Shown piece by piece: positions 701-43,008 of a stretch of 64,000 nt of DNA; position 1 is the stretch's first letter; each line of letters opens with the position of its first letter. This DNA comes from Auricularia sp. M13 (taxonomy: Eukaryota; Basidiomycota; Agaricomycetes; Auriculariales; Auriculariaceae). Both the position numbers and the translations under genes were made by a program. A model generated the notes under the pieces. That model was given only the letters and a program-made list of their open reading frames with translations. It was not told the DNA's origin and did no database searches. Location: the NCBI GenBank assembly GCA_037042915.1, contig CM073199.1:992001-1056000 (forward strand), given 5' to 3'.

Positions 701-705
701 ATGGC

Positions 706-24560: not shown

Positions 24561-24689
24561 GTCTGCGACGGACTCGTCATTTCCTCCCGACAGAACGACC
24601 ACAACGATTATGCTTCTCACCTATCGTGTTCCTTCAACCGATACCTTGCCGTGTTTGCCCAGTTCCCGAGAAATGCATGCCGCGATGCG

Positions 24690-24735
24690 AGCACGCGACC
24701 GCGGCTGCGATGGTCCACTTGGGCCGGGACGCGAC
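24690..24735 (+). promoter_or_regulatory. Degraded copy of the B-family upstream element
   Basis: GCACGCGACCGCGGCTGCG followed by TGGTCCACTTGGGCCGGGA corresponds to the intact element (CACGTGACCACGCCTGTGG, then TTGAGCCGGGACGCG) before the other B genes. The E-box CACGTG has become CACGCG, and the gene it precedes is itself broken. Confidence 0.6.
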
Positions 24736-24775
24736 AGGTTTTCCATGCCTCTTACCCACATCCTCGCCGTCCCCG

Positions 24776-25376
24776 ATGGCCAGTGCAGCTTTGATCGATG
24801 CAGCGTATCACGCGTCGCTGCCCAGCGTCGCGGACGTTCTGGCGGCATATCAACAAGCCCATATGCCCGCGCCAATTGCTGCCGCCACACACCACCACCC
24901 CGTGCCCGCCGACGACGACGCCAACTACTCCTCCGATACCAACGACAGCGGCAGCGGCGAGACATCCGCCAGTGGGCGTCGGATAACGACGCGCCGCATG
25001 CGTCTGCGGCGCCCCTGTACCAGACGCTGCGCGCCGCGTACCTACAGTTCGGAAACGGCGACAGCAGACACAGCGACGCTGAAGACGACACAGAGGCGGG
25101 TCCAGCGATAGCGAGGATGACGCCGCGACAGAGGGCTGGTCCGACGAGGACGGCGACGTGACAGCGTCCTCCGACGGCAACGGCGACGCTGAAGCGGAGT
25201 GGGACAGCGAAGTCGAGGGATTCACGACGTCGTACACCGGGTCTAGCGACACCACGGAATTGTTCGGGAAGACCGAGAGCGACATGGAGTCCTCATACAA
25301 CGAGGAGGACGCTGTATCGGAGTATTGGACCCGTGGTGCGGAGCTCGAAACCGTGTCAAGTTTCGTCAAGAAATGA
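24776..25376 (+). pseudogene. Orphan family B, copy 1 (frameshifted, 3' truncated)
   Basis: Starts normally (ALIDAAYHASLPSVADVLAA, then the His-rich and Ser/Asp-rich part), but the frame shifts after GSGETSA near 24970 and again near 25110, where matching acidic sequence continues in other frames. The second exon carrying the family signature PFDPLAEAYNACR is absent; at about 25333 the sequence joins leader DNA of the next A gene. This is a remnant. Confidence 0.7.
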
Positions 25377-25446
25377 ACGCAGACGGCAAGCTCCGACAGT
25401 TGTCCTCTTCCTCTCGCCATTCTCCGCTCTCCAGACACCATCTGCG

Positions 25447-26166
25447 ATGACCTATCACCAGCCTCAAGCCCCTTACTGGCGCCAGCCTTTGCCCGCCGGT
25501 AACGCCTTCGCGTCTTGGGGTCCGCCCGCGTGGACCATTCCGAACGCAGCGGCGGGGACGGAGACGCAATCGCCTGGTGCGACGACGAAGCCGGCGACGA
25601 AGACAAAGGGGGCGATGAATACGAAGAGCGACGCGCCTAATACGACGCCTGACGCGAGGGCGGACGACACGCCCGAACCAGAAAGCGAGCCGGAGAGCGA
25701 AGCTTGGAACGCAGACAACGAGGCGGACGGGCTGACGCCTGGTTTGCGCCTGGGGTCGCGCACGGCACGCACGGGATCGTCGACGCGGGCGACCCCAAAA
25801 CACCAACAAAGTTTCAACGCGGCGGCACCTGCTGCCGCGACCACCACCACGTCCCCTATGGTGAGTGGCACACCTCGCTCGTTCATCCCCGAGTCAGCGC
25901 TGACGGTGCTCGCCCAGGACGCGGATATGGATGAAGACGACGTCGTCGAAGGGATCACGCCTCTTACGCCCGCCGAAGCCGCATACCTTGTCAAGCTGCA
26001 GGCCCGGACGGCGATGCTGGTGCACGACGCACCGTACGGCCTGGCGGGGAACGACGTGGGCGGCTCGGTCTTCGGGTCGCTGCCTGCGCAGGCGGGCACC
26101 AGCACCGTCCATTGGCCGCGGTTGCGCGACGAAGCCGTCCAAGATATGCGCATCCGCAGTGCGTGA
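25447..26166 (+). CDS. Orphan family A, copy 2 (intact)
   Basis: 239 residues if read as one exon, 220 if the 57-nt segment 25861-25917 is spliced. No known domain recognised. Regions: N-terminal block WRQPLPAGNAFASWGPPAWT (about residues 10-30); a Lys/Thr-rich part; acidic block EPESEPESEAWNADNEADGL; Ala/Thr run AAAPAAATTTT; then a well-conserved C-terminal block TPAEAAYLVKLQARTAMLV, APYGLAGNDVGGSVFGSLPA and HWPRLRDEAVQDM near the end. No signal peptide or membrane segment. Copies at 42036-42740 (opposite strand) and a chimera at 41019-41747 share this C-terminus. It sits 288 bp upstream of B copy 2 on the same strand, the recurring A-B order. Confidence 0.7.
   Translation: MTYHQPQAPYWRQPLPAGNAFASWGPPAWTIPNAAAGTETQSPGATTKPATKTKGAMNTKSDAPNTTPDARADDTPEPESEPESEAWNADNEADGLTPGLRLGSRTARTGSSTRATPKHQQSFNAAAPAAATTTTSPMVSGTPRSFIPESALTVLAQDADMDEDDVVEGITPLTPAEAAYLVKLQARTAMLVHDAPYGLAGNDVGGSVFGSLPAQAGTSTVHWPRLRDEAVQDMRIRSA
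25861..25917 (+). other. 57-nt in-frame intron-like segment (possible exitron)
   Basis: Begins GTGAGT, has GCGCTGAC 15-20 nt before its end and ends GCCCAG, the full consensus of a short basidiomycete intron, yet it is a multiple of three with no stop. The equivalent segments at 24300-24353 (54 nt), 41309-41253 and 42341-42285 (57 nt each) keep both the splice signals and the open frame. Confidence 0.6.
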
Positions 26167-26346
26167 TACAGCGGGGACGAGCGGGGCGATGAGTAGATAC
26201 GACGGACATTCCTCCATACGATGCTGCACTGTATATGCGTTTCTGCTATGACTTTGTCAATATGCCCTGAGCGATCGCTACGATTACGACTACGATTTGC
26301 TCACCTTCAATCGATATTTTGCCGTGTTTACATAGAGATGAATGAG

Positions 26347-26390
26347 CACGTGACCACGCCTGTGGTGGTCGACTACCTTGAGCCGGGACG
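26347..26390 (+). promoter_or_regulatory. Conserved palindromic element of B copy 2
   Basis: CACGTG (26347-26352) overlaps the imperfect palindrome GACCACGCCTGTGGTGGTC (26352-26370), followed by GAGCCGGGACGCGCC. It starts 108 bp before the B copy 2 ATG. The same block occurs 91-108 bp upstream of all intact B-type genes in the window. Confidence 0.75.
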
Positions 26391-26454
26391 CGCCGGGCGT
26401 TTCCACACATTGTCTCTTGTCTCTTGCCTCTTGCGTCCATCCTCGCCGTCCTCG

Positions 26455-27459
26455 ATGTCCACTACACTTCGCATCTCCGACGCAGAGTACGACGCGTCGC
26501 TGCCCAGCGTTGCGGACATCCTTGCGGCGTATCAGCAAGCGTATATGCCGGCGACAGTTCCTGCCGCCACACACCACCACCGCGCGTCCGACGACGACGA
26601 CGATAGCTGCTCCTCCGACACCGACGACAGCGACAGCGGCGAGACCTCCGCCACGTCGTTGCCATCGGACGACGATGTGCTCGCGCAGCCCCAGAACCAA
26701 CACCAGCACGCCGCGTTAATGGTTTTGGGACCGCTTTGGTATTATTTCCCTGTGCTCCAGTTCGCCGACAACGACAGCAGCGACAGTGAAGAAGACGGCA
26801 CGACCGAGGGCTCGTCCGGCGAGGACGACGACGGGACAGCGAGCTGGTCCGACGACAGCGTGGGCAGCGACGCGACGGAATCCTCCCAAGGCGACAGTAA
26901 TGACGAAGAGGGGTGGGACAGCGAGGACGAGGACTCCAAAGCGTCTTACAGCGAGCTGGACGACGCCACTGAGTCGGACCATGAGACCGAGAGCGACAGG
27001 GACGCTTCCGAGTACGCCGACAGCGAGGAGGACGCTGTACAGCAGTATCCGTCTCTGGGACCGACTACAGCGCTCTCCGCCTACCAGACGGGGTCGTCCA
27101 CTGTGGCGGCCCCAATTCACGAATACTACTTTACCGCGGTGGCACCTGCTGCTGCTGCGGGCCCGGATGCGCGCTCGACTGCAGCCAACTCTGTCAGTCA
27201 TTTCTTTTCCGTGATACGCTTGAAAGCTGGTACTGACCGTCGTATCTAGAATACGAGCGCTGTCCAGGGTTTCTCGGCGCGCGTCGAGGGCAGCCGATCC
27301 TCCACGTCAGTCGCCGCCGCCGTTGAGCAGGCTCCCGAGGCTCAGCAGCCTGACGGTGACGGAACCGCGGCGACGATGCCCTTCGATCCGTTGGCTGAGG
27401 CATACAACGCCTGTCGCATTCCCGATGACGAGACTGGCGACGGCTGGCCTTGGTTCTGA
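26455..27459 (+). CDS. Orphan family B, copy 2 (intact)
   Basis: Two exons, 26455-27192 and 27250-27459, 315 residues; intron GTCAGT...TATCTAG. No known domain recognised. Residues 1-30 hold the conserved block SDAEYDASLPSVADILAAYQ; then a His-rich turn and Ser/Asp stretch (SSDTDDSDSGETSATS); a short hydrophobic patch (LWYYFPVLQF); a long strongly acidic region of Asp/Glu/Ser; an aromatic motif EYYFTAVAPAAAA at the end of exon 1; and an exon 2 signature PFDPLAEAYNACRIPDDETG followed by GWPWF and stop. No signal peptide. The acidic low-complexity make-up suggests a disordered, possibly nuclear protein, but this is speculation. Four intact copies are in this window. Confidence 0.72.
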
Positions 27460-27679
27460 GCGACACAAGCTTGCTCGATGCGCGCGTGCGACGGAATACA
27501 CGGCTGAGCGCACGCGCGATGGAATCTATGCCTTTATTCTGTTACTGTCCTCATGCTGCCTGTCTCGACCTCGTCGGTCCCGGGTGTACTGACTACTATG
27601 CAATGCTCACCTGATGTACATATCCGCTATGTTCCACGTTCCACGACTTTTTAATCGATCTCTATCCAGTGTGACCACT

Positions 27680-27910
27680 CCAGCAAGGCCGCTCGGGTCG
27701 CTGCCAGCGCACGCGAGCAAGGAGAGTGTCCATTGGCCGCGGTTACGGGACGAAGCCGTCGCAGACATGCACACCCGCGGCGCGTGAGAGAGCGGGATCG
27801 AGCTGAGCGGTGCTGAGCCGGCGGCCACGCCGACGGAGGCGGCCGCGAGCATCCATTGGCCGCGGCTGCGTGATGAAGCCATCGAAGACATGCGCACCCG
27901 CGGCGGGTGA
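27680..27910 (+). pseudogene. Two relics of the family A C-terminus
   Basis: Two successive fragments encode the A tail: HWPRLRDEAVADMHTRGA ending at a stop near 27787, and HWPRLRDEAIEDMRTRG ending near 27910. Upstream A sequence is missing. DNA following the second relic matches DNA following A copy 2, so this is a truncated A gene in the expected position before B copy 3. Confidence 0.7.
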
Positions 27911-28106
27911 GAGGGCGGGGACGAGCTGGATGGCGATGAGGAGACACGACGGACATTGCTCCTGCTTCCGATGCCGCACTGTAAATGCATTTCTGCTACA
28001 ACTTATCAAATTTCCGCTTGAAAGAAATACGAGTACGATTATGCTCTACTCACCTGCGTCCTCAATCGATATTTTGCCGCATTTGCCCAGTGCATGGCGA
28101 CACGAG

Positions 28107-28155
28107 CACGTGACCACGCCTGTGGTGGACCAACTTGAGCCGGGACGCGCCGAAC
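28107..28155 (+). promoter_or_regulatory. Conserved palindromic element of B copy 3
   Basis: CACGTGACCACGCCTGTGG followed by TGGAC and TTGAGCCGGGACGCGCC, 91 bp before the ATG. Nearly identical to the element before B copy 2. Confidence 0.75.
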
Positions 28156-28197
28156 ATTTCCACACCTTGCCTTCTGCCCACATCCTCGCCATCCACG

Positions 28198-29234
28198 ATG
28201 GCCAGTGCGGCACGCTTGTCCGACGAAGAATACCACGCGTCGCTGCCCAGCGTCGCCGACTTCCTTGCCTCTATGCCGGGACCGACCACGCTCGCCGGCG
28301 CTGCCACAATCCACCAGAACGCGCCCGTCGCCGCCGACGCCAGTTCTTCCGAAAATTCCGACGCATGCGACAGCGACGGCGCCGAAGCCTCCGCCGAGTT
28401 GTTGGCGTCGGACGATGATGCGCCGCAAATGCCCGCGCAGCCCCAGCCCCAGCACGCCGCGAACATGGGCTTGGGCCTGCTTTATGTCTATTTCCCAGTG
28501 CTCTATTTCGGCGACGGCGATACCAGCGATGGCGACGATGACGATGCCACAGAGGTTGGTTCAGGCGACGACGGAACCGAGACGTTCGATGGCGACAGCG
28601 ACGACGCGACGCATTCGCTTAACGGCGCCAATGAAAATACGACCGATTCCTACGGCGATGACGATGACGAAGCCGAGTGGGATACCGAGGACGAGAGCTC
28701 CACCGCGCCTGACTACGGGACGGAGTCATACGGAGAGACTGAGAGCGACGCGCAGTCCTCGTACGGCGACAGCGGCGTCGCTTCCGAATACACGTACAGC
28801 GAGGAGGACGCAGTATGGCAAGATGCGTTGCTGGGGTCCCCGGCGCCGCTTCCCACCGTTTACACGGGGTCGCCAACGCCAGCGGCTCCAACAAACGAAT
28901 ATTACGACACCGCGGCGGCACCTGCTGCTGCTGCGAGCCCGAATGCACGCTCGACCGCCCCTAATTCGGTCAGTTAATTTCTGTGATACACTTGAGAGCT
29001 GATACTGACGGTTGTGCCTAGGATGCCAGCGCTGTTCAGGGTTCGTTGTCGCGCGTCGAGACCGATACGGGCGCACCCTCCACGTCCGCTGCCGCCGCCG
29101 CTCAAGCACACGAGGTCCAGCAGCCTGACGCTGACGGAATCGCGCAGATAATGCCGTTCGATCCGTTGGCCGAGGCGTACAACGCTTGTCGCGTTGCCGA
29201 TGACGAGACTGGCGACGGCTGGCCATGGTTCTGA
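28198..29234 (+). CDS. Orphan family B, copy 3 (intact)
   Basis: Exons 28198-28968 and 29022-29234 give 327 residues; intron GTCAGT...GCCTAG. It keeps the family plan: SDEEYHASLPSVADFLAS at the N-terminus, a shortened region lacking the AAYQQ and His-rich segment, a hydrophobic patch LLYVYFPVLYFG, a long Asp/Glu/Ser/Thr region, EYYDTAAAPAAAA, and in exon 2 PFDPLAEAYNACRVADDETG before GWPWF. Differences in the N-terminal third from copies 2, 4 and 5 show substantial divergence while both ends are kept. Function unknown. Confidence 0.72.
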
Positions 29235-29704
29235 GCGATGCAAACTTGCTCGATGGCGCGTACGACGGAATACATGGCTGGGCGCGCGTGCCCAATGGGC
29301 TCTATGGCTTTTCTTTCTCCTAGAGTATGCGCAACGACTGTCACGCCCTCGTCAGTCCCTGGTGGACTGGCTGCTATGTAAGGCTCACCTGATGTCTATT
29401 ACCGCTACGTTCCGTATTCCATGGCTTTGCAATTAATCTCTTTCTAGTATTACCAGTCCAGCGAGGCCGCGAGAGAGAGAGGAGGAACAAAGCGCTAGGG
29501 GAGCGGAGACTGGGATCGATGCCAAACTAAATTCTTTTCGAATTCAAGTGGTGCGGCACCACGCATCTCCGCTCGGTCATTCTTGACTTCGTCCGTGTCG
29601 GTTGATCAGAACGTTCAGAAAACCGCGACGCCAGGCTCCCTGCAAGCAGGTCTCGCATCTGCGCATTGCTCAGCCTGAGGCTGTTCCAGAGATGACAAGT
29701 CATA

Positions 29705-30420
29705 GCAGGGCTAGTCCAACGCGCGCGTGTGAATTTAGGAACGCCTAGCGCGACGAGCGCACGACCCTCATTCAGATCGTGGAACAGCACACAAGATATG
29801 TTGCTCGTCTTTGTGAGCGCTGCAGCGCCGACAAAGCGCTCGAATTTTGACTGTGAGCCTCGTACAACCGTCTGCGTTGTTCTCTGCGGTGTCTACCGCC
29901 TTCATCGTCGACTCCCACAAGTCCTTGCAGCCAAGCCACACGCAGTGCACTATCGGTAAAATTTTCTATGCTGCAGCAACGAATAAATCGTTTGCAAATG
30001 TCTCTGGGACGATGATAGCGCTGCGCTCTGCGCACACGGCCAGGCAACATCGTGCGACCTTCCGCGACGAACTGGCTGTGATTTCGAGCCTGGCGTGGGC
30101 TTCACGCTGTATACATCCCGTTATGCATTCTTGTCAAGCAACTGCTCCACAAGTACCATGGGCGAAGCACGCTCTGCGCCATCCTTGCGAACATATCGAC
30201 TTCATTACCACCGCCTGAACCCGCCGTTCTAATCGCTCGCTTACTTCCCCTCCTGCTCATCCCTTTTTTTATCGTCTTCGCTGCTCCCCTTCTCTCCTCG
30301 TGGTTCTCGGCTGTTCCTGCTTTCGCGCTGCCGTGCTACCTTCTCGTGCATAGAAACACGATATCCGTCTTGCCTGGCTCCTGCTCCGTCGTCACCCTAT
30401 CCGATACGCAGATCGGGTGA
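29705..30420 (+). pseudogene. DUF6535 gene relic at inner tip of left arm
   Basis: Scattered frames match the intact DUF6535 gene at 14759-17558: WNST-DMLL-F before a GTGAGC donor, then LFSAVSTAFIVDSHKSLQPS, YAAATNKSF, CILVKQ-LHKYHGR and a hydrophobic LLPLLLIPFFIVF. Frame changes and the absence of the last two thirds mark it as a pseudogene. Confidence 0.7.
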
Positions 30421-31455
30421 AAAAGAGGACCCGTTGCCCAGCGTTGCGCTGCTGATGCTCCGGGCCATCTTCACACTGCGACTTGATTCAGACCGCGACG
30501 CGCGACCTGAAGCCTGAAGCTGAAAGCCATGTGTACCGCTCCGTCAGCTTTCAGGGGAAAGCGCCTGGAAGTACCAGAGGCAATGTATACCTGCGCGATC
30601 AGCCACCAGGAGCCAACGGGGCTCAAGCGGGAGTGAGCGCGACACCCTTTGTCATCGTTGTCGATTTGGGCGCGGCGATGACCGTGTCATCCACGCGGTC
30701 AGGAAGAATCGTCCTGTCGACGCTGTGCTTGGCTGCCGTCGGCTTTGGCGCCGCCATGAAGGGCTTGTTGCATGTTGCACCAGTTTCTCGCGGTCATCGT
30801 CTACTCCAGCATCGTCGCCCGCAACACCGATCGCGCTGGTTCAGAAGCAGGATGCGGCATCCCGTCCGTCTCTGCTACGCGATCTGTGCCAGCCTGTGGC
30901 ACGAAGAGCGTGAATTGACGCGAAGGCGTACAACGACGATGAGTCGGACTCTGGTCGAGAGTCGAAACATCCACAACTACATGGAGCTCTCCGAGGCGAA
31001 GGCGCGCGCTGCGGGCGAGGAGTCCGACGAGTACAGTATATGTGCATTATGAACAATAATCCGTACTTGCGCCTGATTCTGCGATTGGACGAGCCCGGGC
31101 ATCCCCTTTCGCTGTGACAGACTGAACCTGTACCCAGCGTAGTACAGTATAATATGTCGTTATTGACGATGCCTTCAGAAATGCTGTTTATATTGAGTAT
31201 GGTTTGTCCTTGTCGCTGAATGAAGGGCGCGCGGGGAAAAGACCTTGTCCCAGTAAGTCTGCATGGTCGATCCAGACTGTGCCCGTCCTCCGGGTCGACG
31301 CGCGCGAAGTGGACTGTCGGACGTGAAGCGCGGTGCGCCGCTAGAGACGAGGAGACGGAGCTTGCGTGCAAGGTGGACAAAGTGGCTCGGTGGCGGGCGT
31401 GTATTACGATGGGATCTGACTGTGTGAGTAAAGCGGGAGTATGCGCGTGATGTGT
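30421..31455. other. Spacer at inner edge of left arm
   Basis: No gene I can support. An open frame at 30483-31052 has no recognised features. This is where similarity between the two arms ends. Confidence 0.4.
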
Positions 31456-32235
31456 TCATCCACTGTAGTCGTAGTACTGTTTTTCCGCGGGCATGGGCGC
31501 GGGCGAGGGCACGAAGGGCGCAATGACGATGGTGAAGGGCGCGTTCTCGCGCACCTTGGCCTCCTGCGCGTACTGCGAGTAGTCCGTCGGCATCCGCAGC
31601 GTGTCTAGTCCGGCGGGGAAGGGCCCGCTCACGCGTTTGTCGCCCTTCATGAGGAACCTGCAATGAATTCAGCGTCAGCTCCGAGTACAGTCAGAGTGAA
31701 GCTAAACGCACACATCCACTCTCCGCGGGCGGAAAAAGCGCTCATTCCACTCGGCCACGACGTCCATGACGCCGCGCACCTTCTTCTTCTTCATCCCATG
31801 CTCGATGAGCAGCGTCACCGGCAGCCCGAACACGCCGAGGCCCGCGACGAACGGCACGCCGCCGCTCACGACGCGCTGCCCGATGCTCAGATCCGCCGCC
31901 TTCTTCATGGCGTCCCAGAATTGCGACCAGTCTTGCGCGGAGACGTCGTGCAGCGGCAGCGGCGGCGGCAGCTGGTCCCCGAAGGCCGGCGTGCTGTAGA
32001 TCCCGCGGTCGAGCGAGATGTGCAAGGAGGCGGTCAGGTGCGCCGTTGAGGACGAGGAAAGGGTGATTGGTGCGAAGGAGGGGCAGGGCAGGCCGGGTGG
32101 GACGGGGCGCGACATCCAGTTGTGCTCGGCGTCTGCGCTGCCTGCTGCTGGTTGACGAGACTGACTTTGACCACCATATGCGTCGTACGGCGGCGGCGGG
32201 GGCAGATGGGTCGACGAGGAAGAAGACGAGGCCAT
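31456..32235 (-). CDS. Conserved-looking protein of unknown function
   Basis: Two exons, 32235-31712 and 31657-31456, 241 residues; the intron (GTGCGT...TTGCAG, 54 nt) restores the frame as VDVFLMKGDK. The N-terminal 45 residues are Ser/Pro-rich and probably disordered (LPPPPPYDAYGGQ contains a PPPY-type motif that WW domains bind). The middle has DWSQFWDAMKKAADLSIGQR, then a hydrophobic stretch VPFVAGLGVFGLPVTLLIEHG, KKKKVRGVMDVVAEWNERFF and PRRVDV. A single membrane-associated hydrophobic segment is possible. I do not recognise the family. Codon use and clean splicing support a real gene. Confidence 0.7.
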
Positions 32236-32774
32236 GGTGGTCGTGGAGCAAAGGTTAAAGATGCGCCGCTATAGCAGCCACTGGCGACGGCTTCTTGGGT
32301 CGCAACTGCCAGTGCTGCGCATTGCCTTGTCCTAAACACCGCGGTGCGAGCCATTGACCAAAGCTTCAGCAGCTACTCGTAAGGCAGCTGCGCCGTGTAC
32401 GCGAATAAAAGCGCATATAATTGCGGCCACAGTCTTACCGCCGAAGATCTTCCTCGAGGAAGAACGGCCTCAAGCGGACTCTGAAAAAGAACAACACGCT
32501 CAGTGCCATGAGAAGAACCTTGTTCTGCCGGATTGCCGTGCTCTCATATCATTATAGTATGTGCTTATTATTCTTAGAAGAAAAATGCTGCATTTCTGAA
32601 TCTACCCCAGATTATCTGGCTTCTCAGGGCTTGAACCTAATATTTTCGGGACTCCATGACGCTCAGCAGAGAGTTCCACGCGGCATGTGAGCAGCGTCGC
32701 AGACCATTTCGTATTCGAGACCCATGACAGACTTTACAGTTAACGGAGAGGTGGAGAGCTATGAGGTGACCGCG
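32236..32774. other. Intergenic region
   Basis: Divergent spacer between the unknown gene and the third CsbD-like gene. No gene seen. A tRNA T-arm-like sequence near 32620-32650 was considered and rejected. Confidence 0.45.
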
Positions 32775-32809
32775 TGACGTCAGTGGCGCGTCCCACAAGC
32801 GCATATAAA
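32775..32809 (+). promoter_or_regulatory. CRE palindrome plus TATA box of CsbD-like gene 3
   Basis: Perfect TGACGTCA at 32775-32782 (ATF/CREB-type bZIP site) followed by TATAAA at 32804-32809, about 83 bp before the ATG. The two other CsbD-like genes have a half site (TACGTCA) in the corresponding place. Confidence 0.65.
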
Positions 32810-32891
32810 GCCACACCTCTTGTGCACCCGCTGCTCCTTCCACTTTCACCTGAACACCCAACTCACACTCACACACTCAAACTACATAACG

Positions 32892-33730
32892 ATGTCTTAC
32901 GATTCCACCGCGATGAACGCCAACCCGAACAACACCCAGACGCCCGCGCGGCACGACGACCAGCCCGCGCAGACCGCTTCCATGCGCACCAACGCCGCAG
33001 CGCCCTCCGGGTCTGGCGGCGCAGACTACCCGTACGTCGGCGGCGGCGAGCGCCCCGAGCCCGCGAGCCTCAAGCCGCGCTTCGGCCTCGCGGCAGCCGG
33101 CCGCGTCCCGTCTCGCGAGAAAGCCCATCGCGAGCTGGACGAATACGCCGGCGACATGCCCGTGCCCGTCCCGGGGCAAGGCGTCTCGCTCGAGGGCCCG
33201 AACGCGTTCGGAGACAGCGCGCAGCGCTTGAGGGGCGGGAGTGGGCGGTACGCGGAGAAGGGGTTAGACGACGCTGTAGAGCCGCCGACGCACAAGGTGC
33301 ACCGCGAGGACGAGCCGCTGCCCGCGCCCGGCTCTGGTGCAGCGGCCGACCCGGGCTTTGGCGCGATCCCCGCGCAGGACGCGCCGCCGGTGCACCGCGT
33401 GCACTCCGAGAGCGAGCCGCTCCCTCCCCCGGGCGCGAACGCATTCAAGGAGGAGCGCCCGCTGGGCGTGCAGCCCGTGCGCGAAGGTTCGTCGAGTTTC
33501 GCATCATTTCCACAGGCGCTTTTTGCTGACGCTCTGCAGGCGGCGTAGCGATTGGCGGGCACGAAGGCCTGCCGGAGGGCAAGGCGACCGCCGTCGACAA
33601 GGTCGTCGGCAAGACGCAGAAGGTCGTCGGGAAGGTCACCAAGAACTGGGAGATGCACGAGAAGGGCGAGCTGCGCGAAGCGGGCGGCAAGAAGGCTGCT
33701 GCTGGCGAGGCCCGCGCTCCGCACGATTGA
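32892..33730 (+). CDS. CsbD-like stress protein 3
   Basis: Exons 32892-33486 and 33540-33730, 261 residues; 53-nt intron GTTCGT...TGCAG. The N-terminal part differs from genes 1 and 2: it is hydrophilic, rich in Pro/Gly/Ala/Glu, with a twice-occurring phrase (HKVHREDEPLPAPGSGA and HRVHSESEPLPPPGANA) and no polyglutamine. The C-terminal exon is again exactly 191 nt and encodes the CsbD-like domain: GLPEGKATAVDKVVGKTQK, VVGKVTKNWEMHEKGELREA, ending GEARAPHD. The exon junction falls at the same codon (Gly, phase 1) in all three genes, so they share one ancestral domain exon. Intrinsically disordered, hydrophilin-like composition suggests a desiccation or heat role (inference). Confidence 0.8.
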
Positions 33731-34178
33731 ACATTGAGCTCGCTGACTGACTCGGACTACACCTCCATAATCTAATACTGTATCATTAGTACCTAATGAA
33801 GTTACATTCTCTTCTTCATCACTGCGAATCGTGCTCATTCAGTGGTAGACCTAGAGCTGCGTGTGTAGGTGAAGGTGAGCCATTTCAGCAGAGCAGCCTG
33901 AGGCGCTCCACCGTCAAAGCACCGTAACGGAGAACCGGCACATACGCAGGCGAATCCAAATGTCAGTCACTTGATTGCGAGCAAAGCGCGAGATACTGTA
34001 CACTGTCACTGACCGACCGAGCGAAAGCCCTCCCCATACTGTACAGACACCAGAGTCCAGAGTCCGAGCCTCGAGTCTCGCCGCGCCAGCAACACACAAA
34101 GCAGAACACAGAAATCAGAAAGCAGCCTGAGAACGATACTGTACACCACCGAGCACCGCGTAGCCTTCCAGTCGTCAA
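33731..34178. other. Convergent 3' spacer
   Basis: 3' regions of the CsbD-like gene and the exonuclease gene. No gene seen. Confidence 0.5.
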
Positions 34179-35970
34179 TCAAGACGGAGCAGAATTCGCA
34201 TTCGCATTCGCAGAGCCGCGACCATGACCGCGCTGGCCACGTCCACGTCCACGTCCGCGCCCGCGACCACGCTCAGGGGCCGCACCGTCACGGTCTTCAT
34301 GCTCAGCTGGCCGTCTCCCGCGCGAGCCTGAGTTCGAGTTCGAGCCGCCGCGATACGCATTCGACGCATTCCCATTCGCGCCAGCAGGATGACCATGAGG
34401 CGCATTGCTGCTGCTGCCGCCGCGCTGACTGTGGCCGCCGCCGCGGCCAGACGGAGGCGCCGCACCATGCTGTCCACGAATGGGAGCAGAAGCGGGCGGC
34501 CCACCGCGGCCGCGCGCGCCCCAGCTTGAGCCCCGGGGTGCACCGCGAGTGGGCTGCGTCGGGGACGGACGCGGCCAGCCCGACCCCAGCCCACTCGCAG
34601 CGCCCCCGCCGCCCCTGCCGCGGCCAGTCGCTGTCCCAGGCGCAGAAGCAGACAGCCCAGGCCAGTGATTCGCAATCGTGCCCAGGCCCGGCGGCGGGCG
34701 CACATACCCAAACGCGTCCAGTCCGGTAGCACTTTCCTCGAATATCGGAGGCACCTCTTCAGGCGCGGGAGGCGGAGGGAGGGAGACGGGCGCCGCGAGC
34801 ATGATCTCGAGCGCGGGGTCGACTTCGTACGCGTCGGTGGAGAGGAAGGAGACGAAGGCGCCGTGGCAGTCGAACGCGATGAAGTGCGGCGCGCGCGGGT
34901 CGGGCGTCTCTGGACGCGCGAGTGTGGACCCAAGGCGTTTGAGCGCGATGTAGGCTGCGCGGCCGGCCAGCGCGTCGTTCGCCGCGTCTGAAAGTGGGGG
35001 TGGAGGACAAATGAATGAGTAAACGAGTGCAGCACAACGGGGAGCGACACGCACATTCCTGCTGTTCAGCAGACAGCGGCTGCTCCCAGTCCGAGCGCTG
35101 GATGCGCTTGGGCTTGTCCAGCCGCAGCTCCAGATACGCGCCGACGAGGCGCGCAAGGCCGGGCGCGTGGACGGGGCGCGGCGCGTTCGGGTCGCGCGGC
35201 GCACGCGGCTTGCCGTCTCTACCGAGCCGCACCCGAGGCTTGCGCTCACCGCCGCCGCCGCCGTCCTCCGTCGCAGGTGGAGAGGCTTGCTGAGAACCAG
35301 ACTCGGCCGTCGCGCCGTCGCCCTCGGCCTTCTCTTTCTCTTGCTCTTTCTCGGGCCGCGGCGGCGGCAAGGGCGCCTCCCAGCGCGCCGTCTCGAGCGT
35401 CACGGCCAGCGCGCCGCAGTCTATGCACTGGCGCATGGCCACGCGCCAGTCGGCGTGCAGCTTCTGCGCGTCCGCTGCAAATGCACAATGAGAAACGGCG
35501 AGTTAGTCAAGTCCAACGCCGCGCGCCGCACGCACCACGCACCCTGTATGCCCACGCCGACCTTCGCAATGTCCGGCGACTCCAGCACGCGCCTCAGCTG
35601 CTCCGGGAACGCTATTACCACCCACCAACACAATATCAGCATTTCATCTTGCCAACAACGAGAGCAACGCACAATCCATAGCGGCCACCTGCGCGAGCAA
35701 CACAAAGTCGCGGCCAGCAAGCTGGATGAGGGCGGTTCGGTTCTCCGGGGCGCCCGGGCGGTAGTTGGGTCGCCACTCGATGTCGAAGCCCAGCGGGCCG
35801 CCCGCCGCCGTGAAGCACGCCGCGATGCGGTCGGCCTCGCGCTCCGTGCGCGCGTAGTAGATGGGCGTCCGCGGCTGGAACGGCGGCAGGTGCGCGTACG
35901 GGTCCACCTTGGGCGGCCGCGGCTGCTTCTGCTGCTGTTGCTGCGGTGTGGCTTTTGCGGTGCTTGCCAT
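34179..35970 (-). CDS. WRN/RNase D-type 3'-5' exonuclease with RG-rich tail
   Basis: Four exons, 35970-35673, 35611-35543, 35474-35055 and 34987-34179, 531 residues. A DEDDy 3'-5' exonuclease domain spans about residues 15-280: Exo I FDIEW, Exo II KVGVGIQADAQKLHADW (spliced across intron 2) and Exo III YAANDALAGRAAYIAL (Tyr completed across intron 3), which together supply the metal-binding Asp/Glu residues. An unusual insertion of about 80 residues, Glu/Lys-rich and then Gly-rich (GGGGGERKPRVRLGRDGKP), separates Exo II and Exo III. The C-terminal 190 residues are low complexity with RG repeats (GRGRGGGGAASG, RGRGRGRGRGQRGHGRG), typical of RNA or nucleic-acid binding. It may act in RNA or DNA end processing; the substrate is not shown. 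Confidence 0.87.
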
Positions 35971-36899
35971 CGCGCAACGGGCGGAGGAAGGGGAGCAGAT
36001 CGGCTTGCACCGGCGACCGCCCCGGATTCATATCGCTTTCCAACGTCAGGGTCCAGGTACAATGCCCATTGTATTTTCAGATGTGTTGCCCGTGTTCCAG
36101 ACCTAACTATGTCATGAAAATACAGTGAAAATTGTTCTCCCATACTTTATGCGTGTTCAGTGACAATGGCAATGGCGTCAGAACTTGCCCAACTTCGCTC
36201 AGTGCTTGCATGTTTAACTTCACACCACCTTCTCCGGCTTCTGACGACATCTTGGATTCGAACAAACACTAGCGAGCTTTGAACGAAAGGACGAAGCCTG
36301 CGTCAAGGTGTGCGTAGCACACTGCAACGCATGACATCGATCTCCGATCCGCGCGTTGCTAAGTTCCTCAGCCCGTTTGTCCTTGCCACCTGACCGCACT
36401 TTCAGAGACCGGTTGCAGACGAATAGGAGCAGGCAATTAGATAAGTTTTCAGTCCTCCCGGGAATGACGAGACGTTATATTGCAGCAGCGACTCGGAGAT
36501 TCATCGACTCGGAGCCCGCACACGGTTGCCGAGGCCGCAGCTTGAAAGAACTGCCAGGACAGGACAGGCTGTCCGTCTTTCGAGATACATAATAACGTCG
36601 ATTCAGCCGTCGGGGTCACGAGATAAGTAGCAAGCGAGTGGTCGGCCGCGGGTGAGTACGAGCCTGCGCTACTGTCGAACGGTGCCGTACCGATAAAGTA
36701 CCAAGGGTGACATGGACGGCGCACGTCAGTACCGACTCGGGATTTGCAAGTGAACGATTGGTCACCAGTCGAGTCCAGTTCAGTCTGATGTACAGTAGCA
36801 CGTCCCCCGAAAGCGCTGCAGCTGCAGCGACAAATAAATCGTTGTTCTGGGGCCGCCGGCGTCCGCGTCGAGACGCCAGCAGCTGCTCTTCCGCTGTGC
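35971..36899. other. Spacer at inner edge of right arm
   Basis: Upstream region of the exonuclease gene and decayed sequence leading into the DUF6535 relic. No supported gene. Confidence 0.4.
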
Positions 36900-37630
36900 A
36901 GCGTCCTGCTCGCCGTTGCGGGCGAATCAGGTGTATCACAGGTGCAAATCGGCGCTTGACTGGATCAGAGAGAACGTCAGGGAGCGCGAGCATGCAGAAA
37001 GCCGCAGGGAGTAGAGCAAGATATAGAACCACTGCGTCGAAGAATGAAAATTGCGAGATGTGCAGGCGCAGAGGCAAGAGAGAGACGAGAACGGGATGGG
37101 CTGTTCAGGCTGCGGTGAAGCGTCAGTATGCGCGTAAGGACGGCACAGAGCGTCAGAACGCATGGCATTCGTCGCCCCATTGCTCGACCTGGGTGCATGT
37201 CAGCGCTACGGCCAGGCTGGCGACCATGCTCGCAAATTACAGCATGTTCGACGAGGAAGGCTGCACTGAATTGTCCAGAGGTCAGAATGTGTCCACAGTG
37301 GGCAGCACTAGCATAATCCCAGCACTGTTTTCGGCGAGATCATTCGTGTCTACAGCATAGAGGGGATTGGAGATGTATTGAGTCAAGTCTGGCTGCAGCA
37401 AGGGCTTGTAGGACGAGAGGATGGAGGCGGTAGACACCGCCGAGAACCAGCGGTCTGTGATACGGTCACAGTAAAAAATCGAGCAGCGCTGTGCTGTATC
37501 GGCAGTGCGGACAATGGTGCTCACAAAATGAGCAAAACATCCTGGTGTGCTGTTCCACGATTTGAGCGTCGGCCATGCGCTTGTCGAGCTATACATTCCA
37601 CACGCGCGCGTTAGGCACTCCAGTGGAAGC
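36900..37630 (-). pseudogene. DUF6535 gene relic at inner tip of right arm
   Basis: Minus-strand fragments match the intact DUF6535 gene: TLKSWNST, FSAVSTASILSSYKPLLQPD, TQYISNPLYAVDTND and LVSLLPLRLHISQFSFF. Stops and frame changes interrupt it. It is the mirror counterpart of 29705-30420. Confidence 0.7.
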
Positions 37631-38044
37631 ACTCTGAATGCCAGCCTGCTGTAAGCCTGGCGCCGCAGCCATGTGTGACGGCCGACTTGGACGAAGTCAA
37701 GATGCAAAAGTCAGACGGCCGAGCGGAGATGCGTGGTGCGCCATTTGAAAGAAATTGAGTTTGGCATCGATCCGAGTGCCCTCTCCACTCTCCTTGCCAT
37801 TCTCATGCAGCCGTGCTGGACTGGTTACGCTAGGAAAATATCAATTGCAAAGCTATGGGATGTAGAACGTAGCAGATATGGACAACAGGTGAGCTTTACA
37901 TATTAGCCAATCCACCAGGGGCTGACGAGGCCGTGACAGTCGTCGTGCATTCTTCAGCAGAAACAAAGGGCATATAATCCATTGGGCGCGCGCGCTCAGC
38001 CGTGTATTCCGTCGCACGCACGCCATCGAGCAAGCTTGCATGGC
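37631..38044. other. Spacer within right arm
   Basis: Non-coding sequence matching the reverse complement of 29235-29704 in patches. No gene seen. Confidence 0.5.
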
Positions 38045-39085
38045 TCAGAACCATGGCCAACTGTCGCCCGTCTCGTCATCGCGTACGCGACAGGCGTTGT
38101 ATGCCTCGGCCAACGCATCAAAGGGCATCATCGCCGCAATTGCGTCAGCACCAGGCTGCTGGGCGTCGGGCGCGTGCTCGGCGGCGGCGGACGTGAAGGG
38201 TGCGCGCGGATTGGCGTCGTTGCGGCTGCCCTCGACGCCCGCGACGCGCGACGAGGAACCATGAACGGCACCAGCGTCCTGGATGGTGTGCGTCAGTACA
38301 AACAGCAATCCTCATTACGAACGACTCACCAAGTCGGACGCAGTTGAGCGCGCATTCGAGCCCGCAGCAGCAGCAGGTGCCGCCGCGGTAAAATAGTAAC
38401 CGTTGGTTGGGGCCGCCGGCGTTGGCGACCCCATGTAGTTGGTGGTGAGCGCCGTCGGCGACCCCAGAGGCGGATATTGTGTTACAGCACGCTCCTCGCT
38501 GTCTGTGTACTCGGACGCGTCGTCCCCGTCGCTCTCGGTCTCATGTTCCGACTCGGCGTCGTCGTAAGAGCCACTATACGACGTCGTGGAGTCTCCGTTT
38601 TCGCCGCCCCACTCAGCTTCGGCATCGCCGTCGCCTTCTGGGGACTCGATCTCGTCGTCCTCCTCGCTGTGGTCCTGCCAGCCCTCTGTCGCGTCCTCCT
38701 CCTCGCTTTCGTAAGACCAGTCCTCCGTTGCACCCTCGTCTTCGCTGCTGCTGCCGTCACCGCTTTCGAACTGCAGCACAGAGGAGTTATGGACTAGCTG
38801 GAGCCAGGCTATCAACGCGGCGCGCAGCGTCTGCCGCAGCGGCGGCGCAGGCGCATGCGGCGCGGCGTCGTCGTCCGACGCCCACGACGTGGCGGAGGTC
38901 TCGCCGCTGTCGCTGTCGTCGGTGTCGGAGGATATGTCGTCGTTGTCGGCTGGCGCGTGATGGTGGAGCGTGGCGGCAGCAACTGTCGCCGGCGTATGAA
39001 CTTGCTGGTACGCCGCCAGAACATCCGCGACGCTGGGCAGCGACGCGTGGTACGCTGCGTCGATCAAGTGGGCTGCAGCGGCCAT
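38045..39085 (-). CDS. Orphan family B, copy 5 (intact)
   Basis: Exons 39085-38330 and 38278-38045, 329 residues; intron GTGAGT...CATCCAG. N-terminus LIDAAYHASLPSVADVLAAY, which is closest to the broken B copy 1. Then a His-rich turn (TLHHHAPADNDD), SSDTDDSDSGETSATS, a hydrophobic patch (LIAWLQLVHNSSVLQF), a long Glu/Asp/Ser region (SYESEEEDATEGWQDHSEED), GYYFTAAAPAAAA, and in exon 2 PFDALAEAYNACRVRDDETG before SWPWF. The final signature has Asp-Ser-Trp in place of Asp-Gly-Trp. It is the right-arm counterpart of B copy 3 by position. Function unknown. Confidence 0.72.
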
Positions 39086-39137
39086 TGAGGATGGAGAGGA
39101 TGTGGGCAGAAGGCAAGAGGCAAGCTGTGGAAAAGCC

Positions 39138-39187
39138 CGGCGCGTCCCGGCTCAAGGAAGGTGGACCACCACATTCGTGGTCACGTG
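39138..39187 (-). promoter_or_regulatory. Conserved palindromic element of B copy 5
   Basis: On the minus strand CACGTGACCACGAATGTGG precedes TGGTCCACC and CTTGAGCCGGGACGCGCC; the E-box is 102 bp before the ATG. The loop of the palindrome differs (GAAT instead of GCCT) while both arms are kept, which suggests the arms matter. Confidence 0.75.
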
Positions 39188-39364
39188 CTCGCGTCGCGGC
39201 ATGCACTGGGCAAGCACGGCCGAATTTAGATTGCAAGGTAAGGAAAGCATACTCGTTATCGTAATGGTCGTTCAGGGGAACTGACAAAGTCGGAGCAGGA
39301 ATGCATTCACAGTGCGAGTGAGGAATGCTTGTCGGCCGTTCAGTCTTAGTCTATGTATGTGCTC

Positions 39365-39520
39365 ATTGCCGCTCAGCTCGACCCCGCTCTCTCACGCGCG
39401 GCGGGTGTGCATGTTGTGCGACGGCTTCGTCCCGCAGCCTCGGCCAATGGTCACTCCCTGTGCTCGCGTGCGCTGGCAGCGACCCGAGCGGCCTTGCTGG
39501 ACTGGTACCACCGGATAGAG
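39365..39520 (-). pseudogene. Relic of the family A C-terminus in right arm
   Basis: Minus-strand remnant of HWPRLRDEAV (here CCATTGGCCGAGGCTGCGGG and following) preceded by the GSLPA-like segment, mirroring the relics at 27680-27910. The rest of the A gene is missing. Confidence 0.65.
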
Positions 39521-39714
39521 ATCGATTAAAAAGTCACGGAACGTGGAACCTAGCGGATATGTACATCAGGTGAGCATTGCATAGTAGTAAGTCCACCAGT
39601 GACTGACGGGTCGTCGTGTATACTTGTAACAGGAAAAAATGGCATAGATCCCATCGCGCGCGCACTCAGCCGTGTATCCCGTCGCACGCGTGCCATCGAG
39701 CAAGACTGTATGGC

Positions 39715-40731
39715 TCAGAACCAGGGCCAGCCGTCGCCAGTCTCGTCATCGGGAATGCGACAGGCGTTGTATGCCTCAGCCAACGGATCGAAGGGCATCG
39801 TCGCCGCGGTTCCGTCAGCGTCAGGCTGCTGAGCCTCGGGCACCTGCTGCGCGGCGGTGGCGGTTGACCTGGGGGGCACACGGGTATCGGTCGCGTTGAA
39901 CCTGCCCTCGACGCGCGCCGAGGAATTCTGCACAGCGCTGGCATCCTATATACGACGGTCAGTACTAGCTTTCAAGCGTAGCACGGAAAAGAAAAGACTG
40001 ACAGAGTTTGGTGCAGTCGAGCGCGTATTGGAGCTCGCAGCAGCAGCAGCAGCAGCAGGTGCCACCGCGGTAAAGTAGTATTCGTCGAATGGGGCCGCCG
40101 GCGTTGGCGACCCCATGTTATTGGTGGTAAACGACGCTGGGGACCCCAGCAACGAATACTGCGATACAGCGTTGTCCTCGCTGTACGCGTATTCGGACGC
40201 GCTCTCATAATCGTTATACGACTCCGTGGCGCTTTCCGAGCCGCTGTACGACATCGTGGAGTCATCGTCCTTGCTATTCCGCCCCGTTTCGTCGTCGTCG
40301 TTGTCGCAATCGTCGTTGTCGGTCGCGTCGTTGCCGTCGAAGGATTTGATCTCGTCGTCGTCCTCGCTATCGCCGGACCAGTCCTCTGTGACACCGTCAT
40401 CGTCGCTGTCGCTGTCTCCGAAATGAACCACAGGGAAATAGACCAGAAGCAGACCCCAGCCTGTGAGCGCGGCGTGCTGGGGCGGCGCGGGCACCGGCTG
40501 CGCATCGTCGTCCGACGCCAACGACGTGGCGGAGCTCTCGCCGCTGTCGTTGTGGCTATCGTCGGAATTGCTAGACGAGCTGGCATCGTCGTCGGGGGGC
40601 GCGTGGTGGTGGTGTGTGGCGGCAGCAGCTGTCGCCGGCATATACGCTTGCTGATACGCCGCAAGGATGTCCGCAACGCTGGGCAGCGACGCGTCGTACT
40701 CTGCGTCGGAGATGCGAAGTGCAGTGGACAT
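39715..40731 (-). CDS. Orphan family B, copy 4 (intact)
   Basis: Exons 40731-40003 and 39945-39715, 319 residues; intron GTCAGT...TATATAG. Very close to B copy 2 at the N-terminus (LRISDAEYDASLPSVADILA) and upstream DNA, so they are counterparts in the two arms. Central region: SSSSNSDDSHNDSGESSATS, hydrophobic LLLVYFPVVHFGD, then an Asp-rich stretch with several Asn (NDATDNDDCDNDDDE), DEYYFTAVAPAAAAAAA with a longer Ala run than other copies, and exon 2 with PFDPLAEAYNACRIPDDETG before GWPWF. Function unknown. Confidence 0.72.
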
Positions 40732-40790
40732 CGAGGACGGCGAGGATGGACGCAAGAGGCAAGAGTCAAGAGGCAAGCTGCGGAAACGCC

Positions 40791-40839
40791 CGGCGCGTCC
40801 CGGCTCAAGGTGGTCGACCACCACAGGCGTGGTCACGTG
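40791..40839 (-). promoter_or_regulatory. Conserved palindromic element of B copy 4
   Basis: On the minus strand CACGTGACCACGCCTGTGG, then TGGTCGACCACCTTGAGC and CGGGACGCGCCGGGCG; the E-box is 108 bp before the ATG, the same distance as in B copy 2. Confidence 0.75.
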
Positions 40840-41018
40840 CTCATTCATCTCTGGGTAAACACCGCAAAATATCGATTGAAGGTGAGCAAATCGTAGTCGT
40901 AATCGTAGCGATCGTTCAGGGCATATTGACAAAGACAGAGCAGAAGCACATATACAGTACGGCGTCATATGGAGGCAGGAATGTCCTTTGTATCTACTCA
41001 TCGCCGCCCAGCTCGACC

Positions 41019-41747
41019 TCATGTGCCGCGGGTGCGCATGTCTTCGATGGCTTCGTCCCGTAACCGCGGCCAATGAGTGCACGACGCCTCCGTCGACATG
41101 CGCGCGTGGGTACGCATCGATCCGAGGACCGAGCCGCCGACATCGTTCCCCGCCAGGCCGTACGGTGCATCGTGCACCAGCATCGCCGTCCTCGCCTGCA
41201 GCGACGCGAGGAACGCGGCGGTTGTGAGCTGGCCGCGGCCGTCTTCGTCCTCCTGTGTGAGTGGTGTCAGCGCTGACACGGGGACTAAAGGGCGCGGTGT
41301 GCCACTCACAGTATCAGACGTGGTGGTGGTGGTCGTGGCAGCAGGTGCCACGGTGCTGTAGTTTGGTTCTCGTTTTGGGGTCGCCTGCGTCGACGACCCC
41401 TTGCGTCGGGCGCGTGACCCCAGGCGCGAACCTGGCGTCAGCCCGTCCGCCTCGTTGTCCGCGTTCCAAGCTTCACTTTCCGGCTCGCTTTCAGGTTCGT
41501 TCTCCGAGTCCTGCTTGTGCTTCGTGTCCGTCGTCTTCTGATGCGCCTTCGCCCTCGTCTTTGCCTGACGCGACGGCATGGAGGTTTCGGCGATGTCGCC
41601 GGTATCAGAGGGCGTACTCGCGTTGTCGGCGGCGGGCGCGCCTTCGACAGTGGCGGCGGCGGCAAGGGTGGTCGACGCAAGGAAGTCGAAGACGCTGGGG
41701 AGGGACGCGTCGTACTCTGCATCGGATAGGCGAGGTGCACCGGACAT
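41019..41747 (-). CDS. Chimeric orphan gene: B-type start, A-type remainder
   Basis: 242 residues as one exon (223 if the 57-nt segment 41309-41253 is spliced). The first 30 residues are family B (RLSDAEYDASLPSVFDFLAS) and the promoter has the B element; from about residue 75 the protein is family A (ENEPESEPESEAWNADNEAD, GLTPGSRLGS, ASLQARTAMLVHDAPYGLAG, HWPRLRDEAIEDMRTRG). It lies between A copy 3 and B copy 4, just where a deletion joining a B gene to the following A gene would leave such a fusion. The frame is open throughout. A new, possibly expressed gene formed by recombination is the simplest reading. Confidence 0.7.
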   Translation of the reverse strand: MSGAPRLSDAEYDASLPSVFDFLASTTLAAAATVEGAPAADNASTPSDTGDIAETSMPSRQAKTRAKAHQKTTDTKHKQDSENEPESEPESEAWNADNEADGLTPGSRLGSRARRKGSSTQATPKREPNYSTVAPAATTTTTTSDTVSGTPRPLVPVSALTPLTQEDEDGRGQLTTAAFLASLQARTAMLVHDAPYGLAGNDVGGSVLGSMRTHARMSTEASCTHWPRLRDEAIEDMRTRGT

Positions 41748-41798
41748 TGAGGACGGCGAGGATGGAAGCAGGAGGCAAGAGGCAAGGTGTGAAAACGC

Positions 41799-41844
41799 CC
41801 GGCGCGTCCCGGCTTAAGTGGACCACCACAGGCGTGGTCACGTG
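41799..41844 (-). promoter_or_regulatory. Conserved palindromic element of the chimeric gene
   Basis: On the minus strand CACGTGACCACGCCTGTGG, TGGTCCACTTAAGCC and GGGACGCGCC; the E-box is 97 bp before the ATG. The fusion gene therefore has the B-type promoter. Confidence 0.75.
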
Positions 41845-42035
41845 CGCGCACTGGGCAAATACAGCAAAATATCGATTTAAGACGCAGGTGAGCAAAGTAT
41901 AATTGTAATCGTAATCACGGTCGTTGAGGGGAAAATTGACAGGTTCGTAGCAAAAATGCATATACAGTGCGGCATCGCAAGCAGGAGGAATGTCCGTCGT
42001 ATCTACTCATCGCCATCCAGTTCGTCCCCTCCCTC

Positions 42036-42740
42036 TCACGCGCCGCGGGTGCGCATATCTTCGACGGCTTCGTCGCGCAACCGCGGCCAGTGGACGGTGC
42101 TCGTGCCCGCCTGTGCAGGCAGCGACCCGAAGACCGAGCCGCCGACGTCGTTCCCCGCCAGGCCGTACGGTGCGTCGTGCACCAGCATCGCCGTCCGGGC
42201 GTGCAGCTTGACAAGGTAGGCGGCTTCGGCGGGCGTAAGGGGTGTGGTCCCCTCGACGACGTCGTCTTCGTCCATATCCGCGTCCTGGGCGAGCACCGTC
42301 AGCGCTGACTCGGGGATGAACAAGCGAGGTGTGCCACTCACCATATCGGACGTCGTGGTGGTGGGCGCGGCAGCAGGTGCCACGGTGTTGGAGTTAGTTT
42401 CGTGTTTGGGGGTCGCCAGTGGTCGCTGGGCCGCGGCCGACCCCAGGCGCGAACCTGGCGTCAGCCCGTCCGCCTCGTTGTCAGCGTGCCAGGCCTCGCT
42501 CTCCGGCTCGCTTTCTGGTTCGCGCGTGTCCTCCGCCACCGGGTTAGGCGCGTTGGTCTTCGTCTTCATCGCCCCCTTCTTCTTCGTCGTCGCCGGCTTC
42601 GTCGTCGCGCCAGGCGATTGTGTGTCCGTCCCCGCCGCTGCGTTCGGGATGGTCCACGCCGGCGGCCCCCAAGACGCGAAGGCGTTGCCGGCGGGCAGAG
42701 GCTGGCGCCAGTCCGGGTTTGGATGCTGGTAGTAGCTCAT
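42036..42740 (-). CDS. Orphan family A, copy 3 (intact)
   Basis: 234 residues as one exon (215 if the 57-nt segment 42341-42285 is spliced). Starts PDWRQPLPAGNAFASWGPPA near residue 10, has Lys/Thr-rich and acidic parts (TREPESEPESEAWHADNEAD), GLTPGSRLGS, an Ala/Thr run, and the conserved C-terminal block TPAEAAYLVKLHARTAMLV, APYGLAGNDVGGSVFGSLPA, HWPRLRDEAVEDMRTRGA. It is the counterpart of A copy 2 in the opposite arm. The leader upstream (GAGCTCCGACAGTTGTCCTC) also matches that of A copy 2. The frame stays open upstream of the ATG, but that extension has no counterpart in copy 2. Function unknown. Confidence 0.7.
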   Translation of the reverse strand: MSYYQHPNPDWRQPLPAGNAFASWGPPAWTIPNAAAGTDTQSPGATTKPATTKKKGAMKTKTNAPNPVAEDTREPESEPESEAWHADNEADGLTPGSRLGSAAAQRPLATPKHETNSNTVAPAAAPTTTTSDMVSGTPRLFIPESALTVLAQDADMDEDDVVEGTTPLTPAEAAYLVKLHARTAMLVHDAPYGLAGNDVGGSVFGSLPAQAGTSTVHWPRLRDEAVEDMRTRGA

Positions 42741-43008
42741 TGCAGAGGGCGTGTGGAGAGTGGAGAGTGCAGAGGAAGGAAGAGGACAACTGTCGGAGCT
42801 CGCCGTTTGGATCCGACGGTTCGCTTTTGTACTGTGGGTCACATGAAGGTAGTTTTTGCTTTTCCGCGCCATTTTCTCTAAATATCTTACAAATGTATGA
42901 TAAAGATTGGAGATTTTATAGCCTCTATAGACGTCTCGGGGCCGGTGTTCGAGATTCTCATGCGGACGGCGTTTGTCGACGCGACACGGTTTCGAGCTCC
43001 GCACCACG

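Follow-up and report, generated by a model that had tools for sequence, protein, structure and literature searches.

An imperfect inverted duplication in Auricularia sp. M13 carries a gene family without detectable relatives that appears to be under purifying selection

In palindromic gene-conversion arrays, such as those of the primate Y, inverted arms carry the same genes, and in the wtf meiotic drivers of fission yeast poison and antidote are encoded by one gene. The wtf drivers form a multi-copy fungal family (PMC9562144), and homology-detection failure is given as the explanation for many lineage-specific genes in fungi (PMC7660931). Here, we describe a stretch of 64,000 nucleotides from Auricularia sp. 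M13 (hereafter the window; G000:C7:992001-1056000, contig C7 being one of 14 in a genome of 52.1 Mb) in which two types of genes, called A and B, are arranged in two antiparallel arms. We lean, by a slight balance of probability, towards a birth-and-death family, restricted as far as our searches reach to one fungal lineage probably in or near Auriculariales, that was amplified in tandem, then inverted, and whose products are probably disordered.

The original prediction had proposed an inverted duplication with mirrored A and B genes. By self-BLASTN of the window, we recovered both arms, at about 25.3–30.3 kb (plus strand) and 43.0–37.0 kb (minus strand), as antiparallel matches of 69–83% identity: 41673–42809 versus 26529–25380 (83.0%, E=0), 39361–41499 versus 27818–25674 (78.9%, E=0) and 37387–38532 versus 29941–28766 (69.3%, E=6e-149). 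Tandem matches were also found within each arm and to a relic unit at 24.1–25.3 kb. The outer junction GAGCTCGAAACCGTGTC was read in both orientations, one per arm, as expected, and a relic of a DUF6535 gene was confirmed at the inner end of each arm, with PF20153 found in one of three frames per relic (E=2.7e-5 and 24.5 bits for one, E=2.8e-12 and 47.3 bits for the other; cut-off 23.9) and the two relics being 67.8% alike. Since the antiparallel arms share gene order and non-coding flanks, the locus is an inverted segmental duplication, albeit with an imperfect mirror: the right arm holds an additional A-B unit, fused by deletion into a chimera, and B4 is a mosaic, so that the predicted mirror order holds in outline but not exactly. 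The arms are separated, as announced, by a spacer of about 6 kb with other genes, among which the labels CsbD-like and exonuclease found no Pfam match (at E<=0.01, nor at E<=0.1 on partly other frame pieces). The spacer also contains a DUF4646 (PF15496) gene at 31726–32265, and beyond the arms, at 14861–17083, there is a DUF6535 frame that is intact.

Inverted arms are a classic form of misassembly, and a folded contig or unmerged alleles could in principle have produced them. However, the arms differ by 17–31%, with synonymous divergences (dS) of 0.24–0.76, and are therefore too diverged for a duplicated-contig artefact. Moreover, in the self-BLASTN no antiparallel match reached into the spacer or into the DNA right of 43.0 kb, and a separate arrangement of like kind exists on contig C8. 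A haplotype or assembly artefact was thus rejected, and we consider it extremely improbable.

We then modelled the copies that look full-length, A0, B0, three A tails, an A-like copy upstream of A8L on C8 and the copy on contig C5 having been set aside beforehand as relics. All seven two-exon models on C7 (A1, A2, the chimera and B1–B4) are intact, with introns of 51–57 nt, and together with the four on C8 all 11 full-length models have a single phase-0 intron of 50–57 nt at the same place, exon 2 beginning with DA in nine of them. The main copies are thus not decaying, contrary to what had been proposed, as the seven C7 models are open across the intron. Translation can continue in frame, with no stop codon, across the A intron of A1, A2, the chimera and A8L, whereas the intron of A8R is out of frame and contains a stop, which argues for a true intron. 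The chimera, with its intact two-exon frame and a kept upstream E-box, is possibly a new gene made by deletion.

The reading frames also carry a mark of selection. The ratio of nonsynonymous to synonymous divergence (dN/dS) between copies, a check that had been suggested for this locus, was below 1 in 25/25 pairs by the NG86 method (0.38–0.69; 10 A-type pairs including the chimera and 15 B pairs). YN00 gave 0.29–0.88 for 17 of these pairs and no value for the other eight, and the ratio stayed below 1 in bootstraps of all eight chosen pairs. In neutral simulations, with substitutions only and divergences set from the NG86 dS values, the frame stayed open in 0–56 of 400 runs per gene. Within B, the C-terminal tail is the most constrained segment when the four C7 copies are compared (dN/dS of 0.18), while the remaining segments (0.41–0.67) follow no clear pattern. 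Absence of homologues, low complexity and high GC would suit open frames in a decaying GC-rich repeat that are no genes at all, but the conserved intron and frames in 11/11 models, the dN/dS values and the rarity with which neutral simulations keep the frames make this very unlikely. Together, these data indicate that A and B look like real genes under purifying selection.

A and B had been presented as two orphan families. No relatives were found for either, but the two are probably diverged paralogues rather than unrelated. First, at the intron or immediately ahead of it, the DNA of A8R is similar to that of B4 (162 bp at 72.2%, E=4e-16) and of B1 (148 bp at 71.6%, E=1e-10). Second, a comparison of the A and B profiles aligned 57 columns up to the intron position (E=9.3e-5) with a probability of just 58.9%, in a block whose richness in A, P and T raises the score. 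Third, the intron has the same position and phase in both, for which common descent is the simplest reading.

Searching 5.8 billion proteins returned no relative of A among 4143 candidates (the query including the translated intron) and none of B among 4612, through a 5-residue word filter that may overlook diverged relatives. The database did not return the A and B of this genome either, the genome being absent from it. As a control, a DUF6535 gene from the window found 26 relatives in the same database (best 43%), including Auricularia subglabra (36%) and Exidia glandulosa, which indicates that genomes of Auriculariales are covered. In Pfam, none of four A members scored above a cut-off (best Trypan_PARP, 16.9 bits versus 100) and none of six B members matched (best Med3, E=0.72). 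The best NCBIfam score, for A only, was 13.2 bits against a cut-off of 414, neither profile matched the PDB at E<=1, and none of the paper titles listed in literature searches dealt with this family, for which no name exists to query. The original statement that neither A nor B belongs to a recognised family is supported for these proteins and databases. A viral origin was also tried and rejected: two scans of viral contigs, from which records near this genome may be left out, gave 31 and 11 pattern stretches and no confirmed relatives.

B is strongly polyacidic (net charge of −51 to −62), and A is smaller and mildly acidic (−5 to −11 for A-type copies). AlphaFold produced no confident fold, with a mean predicted local distance difference test (pLDDT) of 44.6 for A2 and 42.4 for B3 and a predicted template modelling score (pTM) of 0.16 and 0.15, respectively, values that are no proof of disorder since the alignments were shallow (4 and 6 rows) and the intron was translated in both. 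The best part of A2 is a single helix at 170–189, with one ten-residue block at 71, and those of B3 are two short N-terminal helices at 9–14 and 19–30, the best block reaching 64. By eye, A and B have no membrane helix save a short hydrophobic patch in B. These predictions suggest that the products are probably intrinsically disordered, and we infer that they are probably intracellular. A known class of disordered proteins that diverged beyond detection, such as septal-pore-plug proteins or acidic transcription activators, could look the same: B is polyacidic with a hydrophobic patch, some septal-pore proteins have disordered regions (PMC10023807), and homology-detection failure accounts for many lineage-specific fungal genes (PMC7660931). 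However, no homologue was found and neither class is directly supported, so that we regard this explanation as rather unlikely.

The order of events was read from flanks and from trees built with FastTree and by neighbour joining (NJ; 300 bootstrap replicates), the tail tree combining exon 2 and the 3' flank. First, the 3' flanks pair across the arms, B1/B3 being 84.2% and B2/B4 82.0% identical in raw percentages versus 76.0–77.9% for the other four pairings. Second, NJ joined B1 and B3 in 300/300 replicates of both the tail and the head trees, and A1 and A2 in 295/300, whereas B2 and B4 were joined in only 174/300 replicates of the tail tree (123/300 for an alternative with B4 outside). Third, the head tree groups B2 with the chimera (214/300) and B4 with B0 and the C8 copies (212/300), and the 5' flanks agree with the heads (preB1/preB3 91.8%, preB2/A2-chimera 83.3%, preB2/preB4 75.0%). 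Coding dS (NG86) is 0.76 for B2/B4 versus 0.34 for B1/B3. Thus, the flank pairing and the disagreement between tail and head trees indicate that the array was tandem before the inversion and that later exchange reshuffled it. The predicted succession of tandem amplification and inverted copying is supported to this extent by the 3' flanks and the B1/B3 pairing. A stretch of promoter and head that is 94–96% identical between B1 and B3 could reflect gene conversion or constraint; constraint is plausible for the head because the comparison of the C8 arms also peaks, at 0.93, over the head of B and over the block that precedes the intron, and drops to 0.77–0.85 in exon 2.

The family reaches past the window, genome copy counts being lower bounds. 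C8 carries an intact mirror-image A-B pair (A8L, A8R, B8L and B8R, 4/4 intact models) on arms of 2.8 kb that are 81.9% identical and 19 kb apart, and C5 carries a broken C8-like copy, 74–94% identical to C8 with flanking DNA on both sides included. By six-frame translation, the A-like copy upstream of A8L looks broken as well. Since the C8 arms pair with each other in all three trees, the second mirror is either separate in origin or homogenised. With orientation left to chance, both of two loci would be mirrored in about a quarter of cases, and the observation carries no significance by itself. Around and between the C8 arms (C8:2268001-2308000), we noticed by eye frames resembling single-pass membrane proteins, with a hydrophobic stretch, arginines and a long Ser/Pro-rich tail; eight of ten frames scanned in this region had no Pfam match at E<=0.01. 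The C8 arms are also flanked in mirror position by two related pieces (69.6% identity).

Copies on three contigs, with a C5 copy that includes C8 flanks on both sides, could suggest that the A-B unit is the cargo or a part of a mobile element moving between chromosomes. However, two flank DNA queries matched the family's own loci only (four matches on C8, C5 and C7, and nine all on C7), and neither a transposase nor a terminal repeat in common was noticed at the loci, where target-site duplications were not searched for systematically. As these flanks are not dispersed, the mobile element was rejected as highly unlikely.

Upstream of B-type heads of intact genes, at about 85–110 bp, lies the motif CACGTGAC (5/5 on C7 and 2/2 on C8), an E-box and putative basic helix-loop-helix (bHLH) site of the Cbf1/Pho4 type. 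It also precedes A8R, the A-like copy upstream of A8L and, by sequence reading, both C5 heads. The window has seven matches (two of them elsewhere, at 49306 and 49327) versus about 2.4 expected by base composition, and 40 kb of C8 has five (one elsewhere), although these counts are not independent because the sites sit on related copies. From this placement we infer that B may be under bHLH control.

On C7 and C8, A and B form a multi-copy, lineage-limited and fast-evolving pair of neighbours, of which C5 carries a broken copy, and they could also be a selfish two-gene system in which A and B are killer and protector (a spore killer or a toxin-antidote pair). Such a system would account for the amplification, the spread over three chromosomes, the relics and the survival of B copies next to dead A copies. 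In keeping with this, B2 and B4 are intact beside A-tail relics, and wtf drivers are likewise a multi-copy family (PMC9562144). In contrast, the raised dN/dS expected from conflict was not observed, gene-wide averages being below 1 in every pair, A2 is intact though the B that follows it is the chimera, and the short patch in B is the only membrane-like feature seen by eye. We thus find a killer-protector pair unlikely. The broader idea that A and B form an undescribed two-protein selfish or recognition system, as a paralogous pair of fixed order that was repeatedly mirror-copied and in which some B outlive A as an antidote would, seems to us improbable too. The locus had been put forward as the best candidate for an undescribed system, but we saw no sign that the mirror layout does anything; it looks like ordinary gene-family turnover, and what we have is a selected orphan family rather than a demonstrated new system.

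In the birth-and-death reading that we favour, a single ancestral two-exon gene would have duplicated into A and B, and the A-B pair would have been amplified in tandem on C7 beside a DUF6535 gene before the array was copied in inverted orientation. The chimera, the mosaic B4 and the A-tail relics may stem from unequal exchange and deletions. The C8 pair would likewise have been duplicated in inverted orientation and could be the source or the nearest kin of the broken C5 copy. B might act as an acidic and flexible scaffold or adaptor whose conserved C-terminal tail, and perhaps also its N-terminal helix, binds a partner, with A, from the neighbouring gene, as a co-acting or competing relative; partner binding by B and these roles of B and A are a tentative guess at mechanism. 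Several points weigh against parts of this reading, beyond the composition of the A-B block, the word filter and the shallow AlphaFold alignments. First, the high B2/B4 dS, the weak B2/B4 tail support and the 5' flanks that pair otherwise do not fit one clean inverted copy. Second, the dN/dS of the B C-terminal tail climbs to 0.42 once the C8 copies are added, and on C7 the N-terminal helix (0.51) and the acidic middle (0.41) are much alike, only the tail standing out. Third, A1, A2 and A8L are not preceded by the exact E-box.

Table 1. Positions of A and B genes, relics and associated motifs in the window (aa, amino acids)
Feature	Position	Strand	Basis
A0, gene A relic left of arm	23974..24542	+	BLASTN to A1 at 24129-24542; one TGA and one TAG in 24091-24522; possible start read
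B0, gene B relic	24776..25330	+	BLASTN 24674-25283 to B4 head, 71.7%; head tree
Outer junction GAGCTCGAAACCGTGTC, plus arm	25341..25357	+	sequence read
A1, 220 aa, intact	25447..26166; exons 25447-25860, 25918-26166; 57-nt phase-0 intron	+	gene model
CACGTGAC E-box, about 100 bp before B1 ATG	26347..26354	+	motif positions, alignment
B1, 315 aa, intact	26455..27459; exons 26455-27192, 27250-27459	+	gene model
Two tandem A-tail relics	27693..27910 (about 27693-27787, 27816-27910)	+	BLASTN, sequence
CACGTGAC before B2	28107	+	motif positions
B2, 327 aa, intact	28198..29234; exons 28198-28968, 29022-29234	+	gene model
DUF6535 relic, plus arm	29476..30250 (approximate)	+	PF20153 match at about 29871-30056, stops read as X
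DUF6535 relic, minus arm	37000..37814 (approximate)	-	PF20153 match at about 37018-37446, stops read as X
B4, 329 aa, intact; mosaic, head nearer B0, tail nearer B2	38045..39085; exons 39085-38330, 38278-38045	-	gene model; trees
CACGTGAC before B4	39180	-	motif positions
A-tail relic, minus arm	39392..39500	-	BLASTN, sequence
B3, 319 aa, intact; B1 counterpart	39715..40731; exons 40731-40003, 39945-39715	-	gene model; trees
CACGTGAC before B3	40832	-	motif positions
Chimera, B head (nearest B2, 214/300) and A body, 223 aa, intact	41019..41747; exons 41747-41310, 41252-41019	-	gene model; tree
CACGTGAC before chimera	41837	-	motif positions
A2, 215 aa, intact; A1 counterpart (295/300)	42036..42740; exons 42740-42342, 42284-42036	-	gene model; tree
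Outer junction GAGCTCGAAACCGTGTC, minus arm	42983..42999	-	sequence read

Other features were noticed near the arrays. To the left, an HSP90 gene lies at 19401–21643 and a tandem array of diverged genes at 1–13600, one piece of which (2558–3196) matches the O-methyltransferase family PF00891 with 23.4 bits against a cut-off of 22.3. To the right, a 2.4-kb element at 45209–47602 has 366-bp inverted ends that are 99.5% identical and no long gene seen inside. On contig C3, weaker relatives of these ends (71–75%) are arranged as two inverted pairs with distances of about 8.7 and 9.1 kb, so that the element may have arisen from a larger DNA transposon by shortening.

The present evidence points to a new family of a known kind, a selected orphan family, and to no new mechanism. 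It offers a countable case of how a family without detectable relatives grows and is pruned: one gene splits into paralogues, copies are gained in tandem and mirrored, and some are fused or lost, so that intact and dead copies lie side by side. Should A and B prove to act jointly, this little-studied fungal order would supply a new functional pair. Compared with described systems, the A/B genes resemble fungal lineage-specific (orphan) tandem families in having no detectable relatives, several copies, fast turnover, and relics and a chimera beside intact copies, but differ from them in that two diverged paralogues have retained the A-B order at two loci, each with a mirror layout. The DUF6535 (PF20153) genes of Agaricomycetes, of which a relic sits at the inner end of each C7 arm, bear no sign of homology to A or B and are a passenger of the duplication. 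Like palindromic gene-conversion arrays, the C7 arms are inverted and hold the same genes; unlike them, they are only 69–83% alike, which speaks against strong recent homogenisation overall. Finally, A and B are multi-copy, rapidly changing fungal genes as are the wtf meiotic drivers, but whereas wtf genes show signatures of conflict (PMC9562144), in A and B, which are separate genes, the gene-wide dN/dS is below 1.

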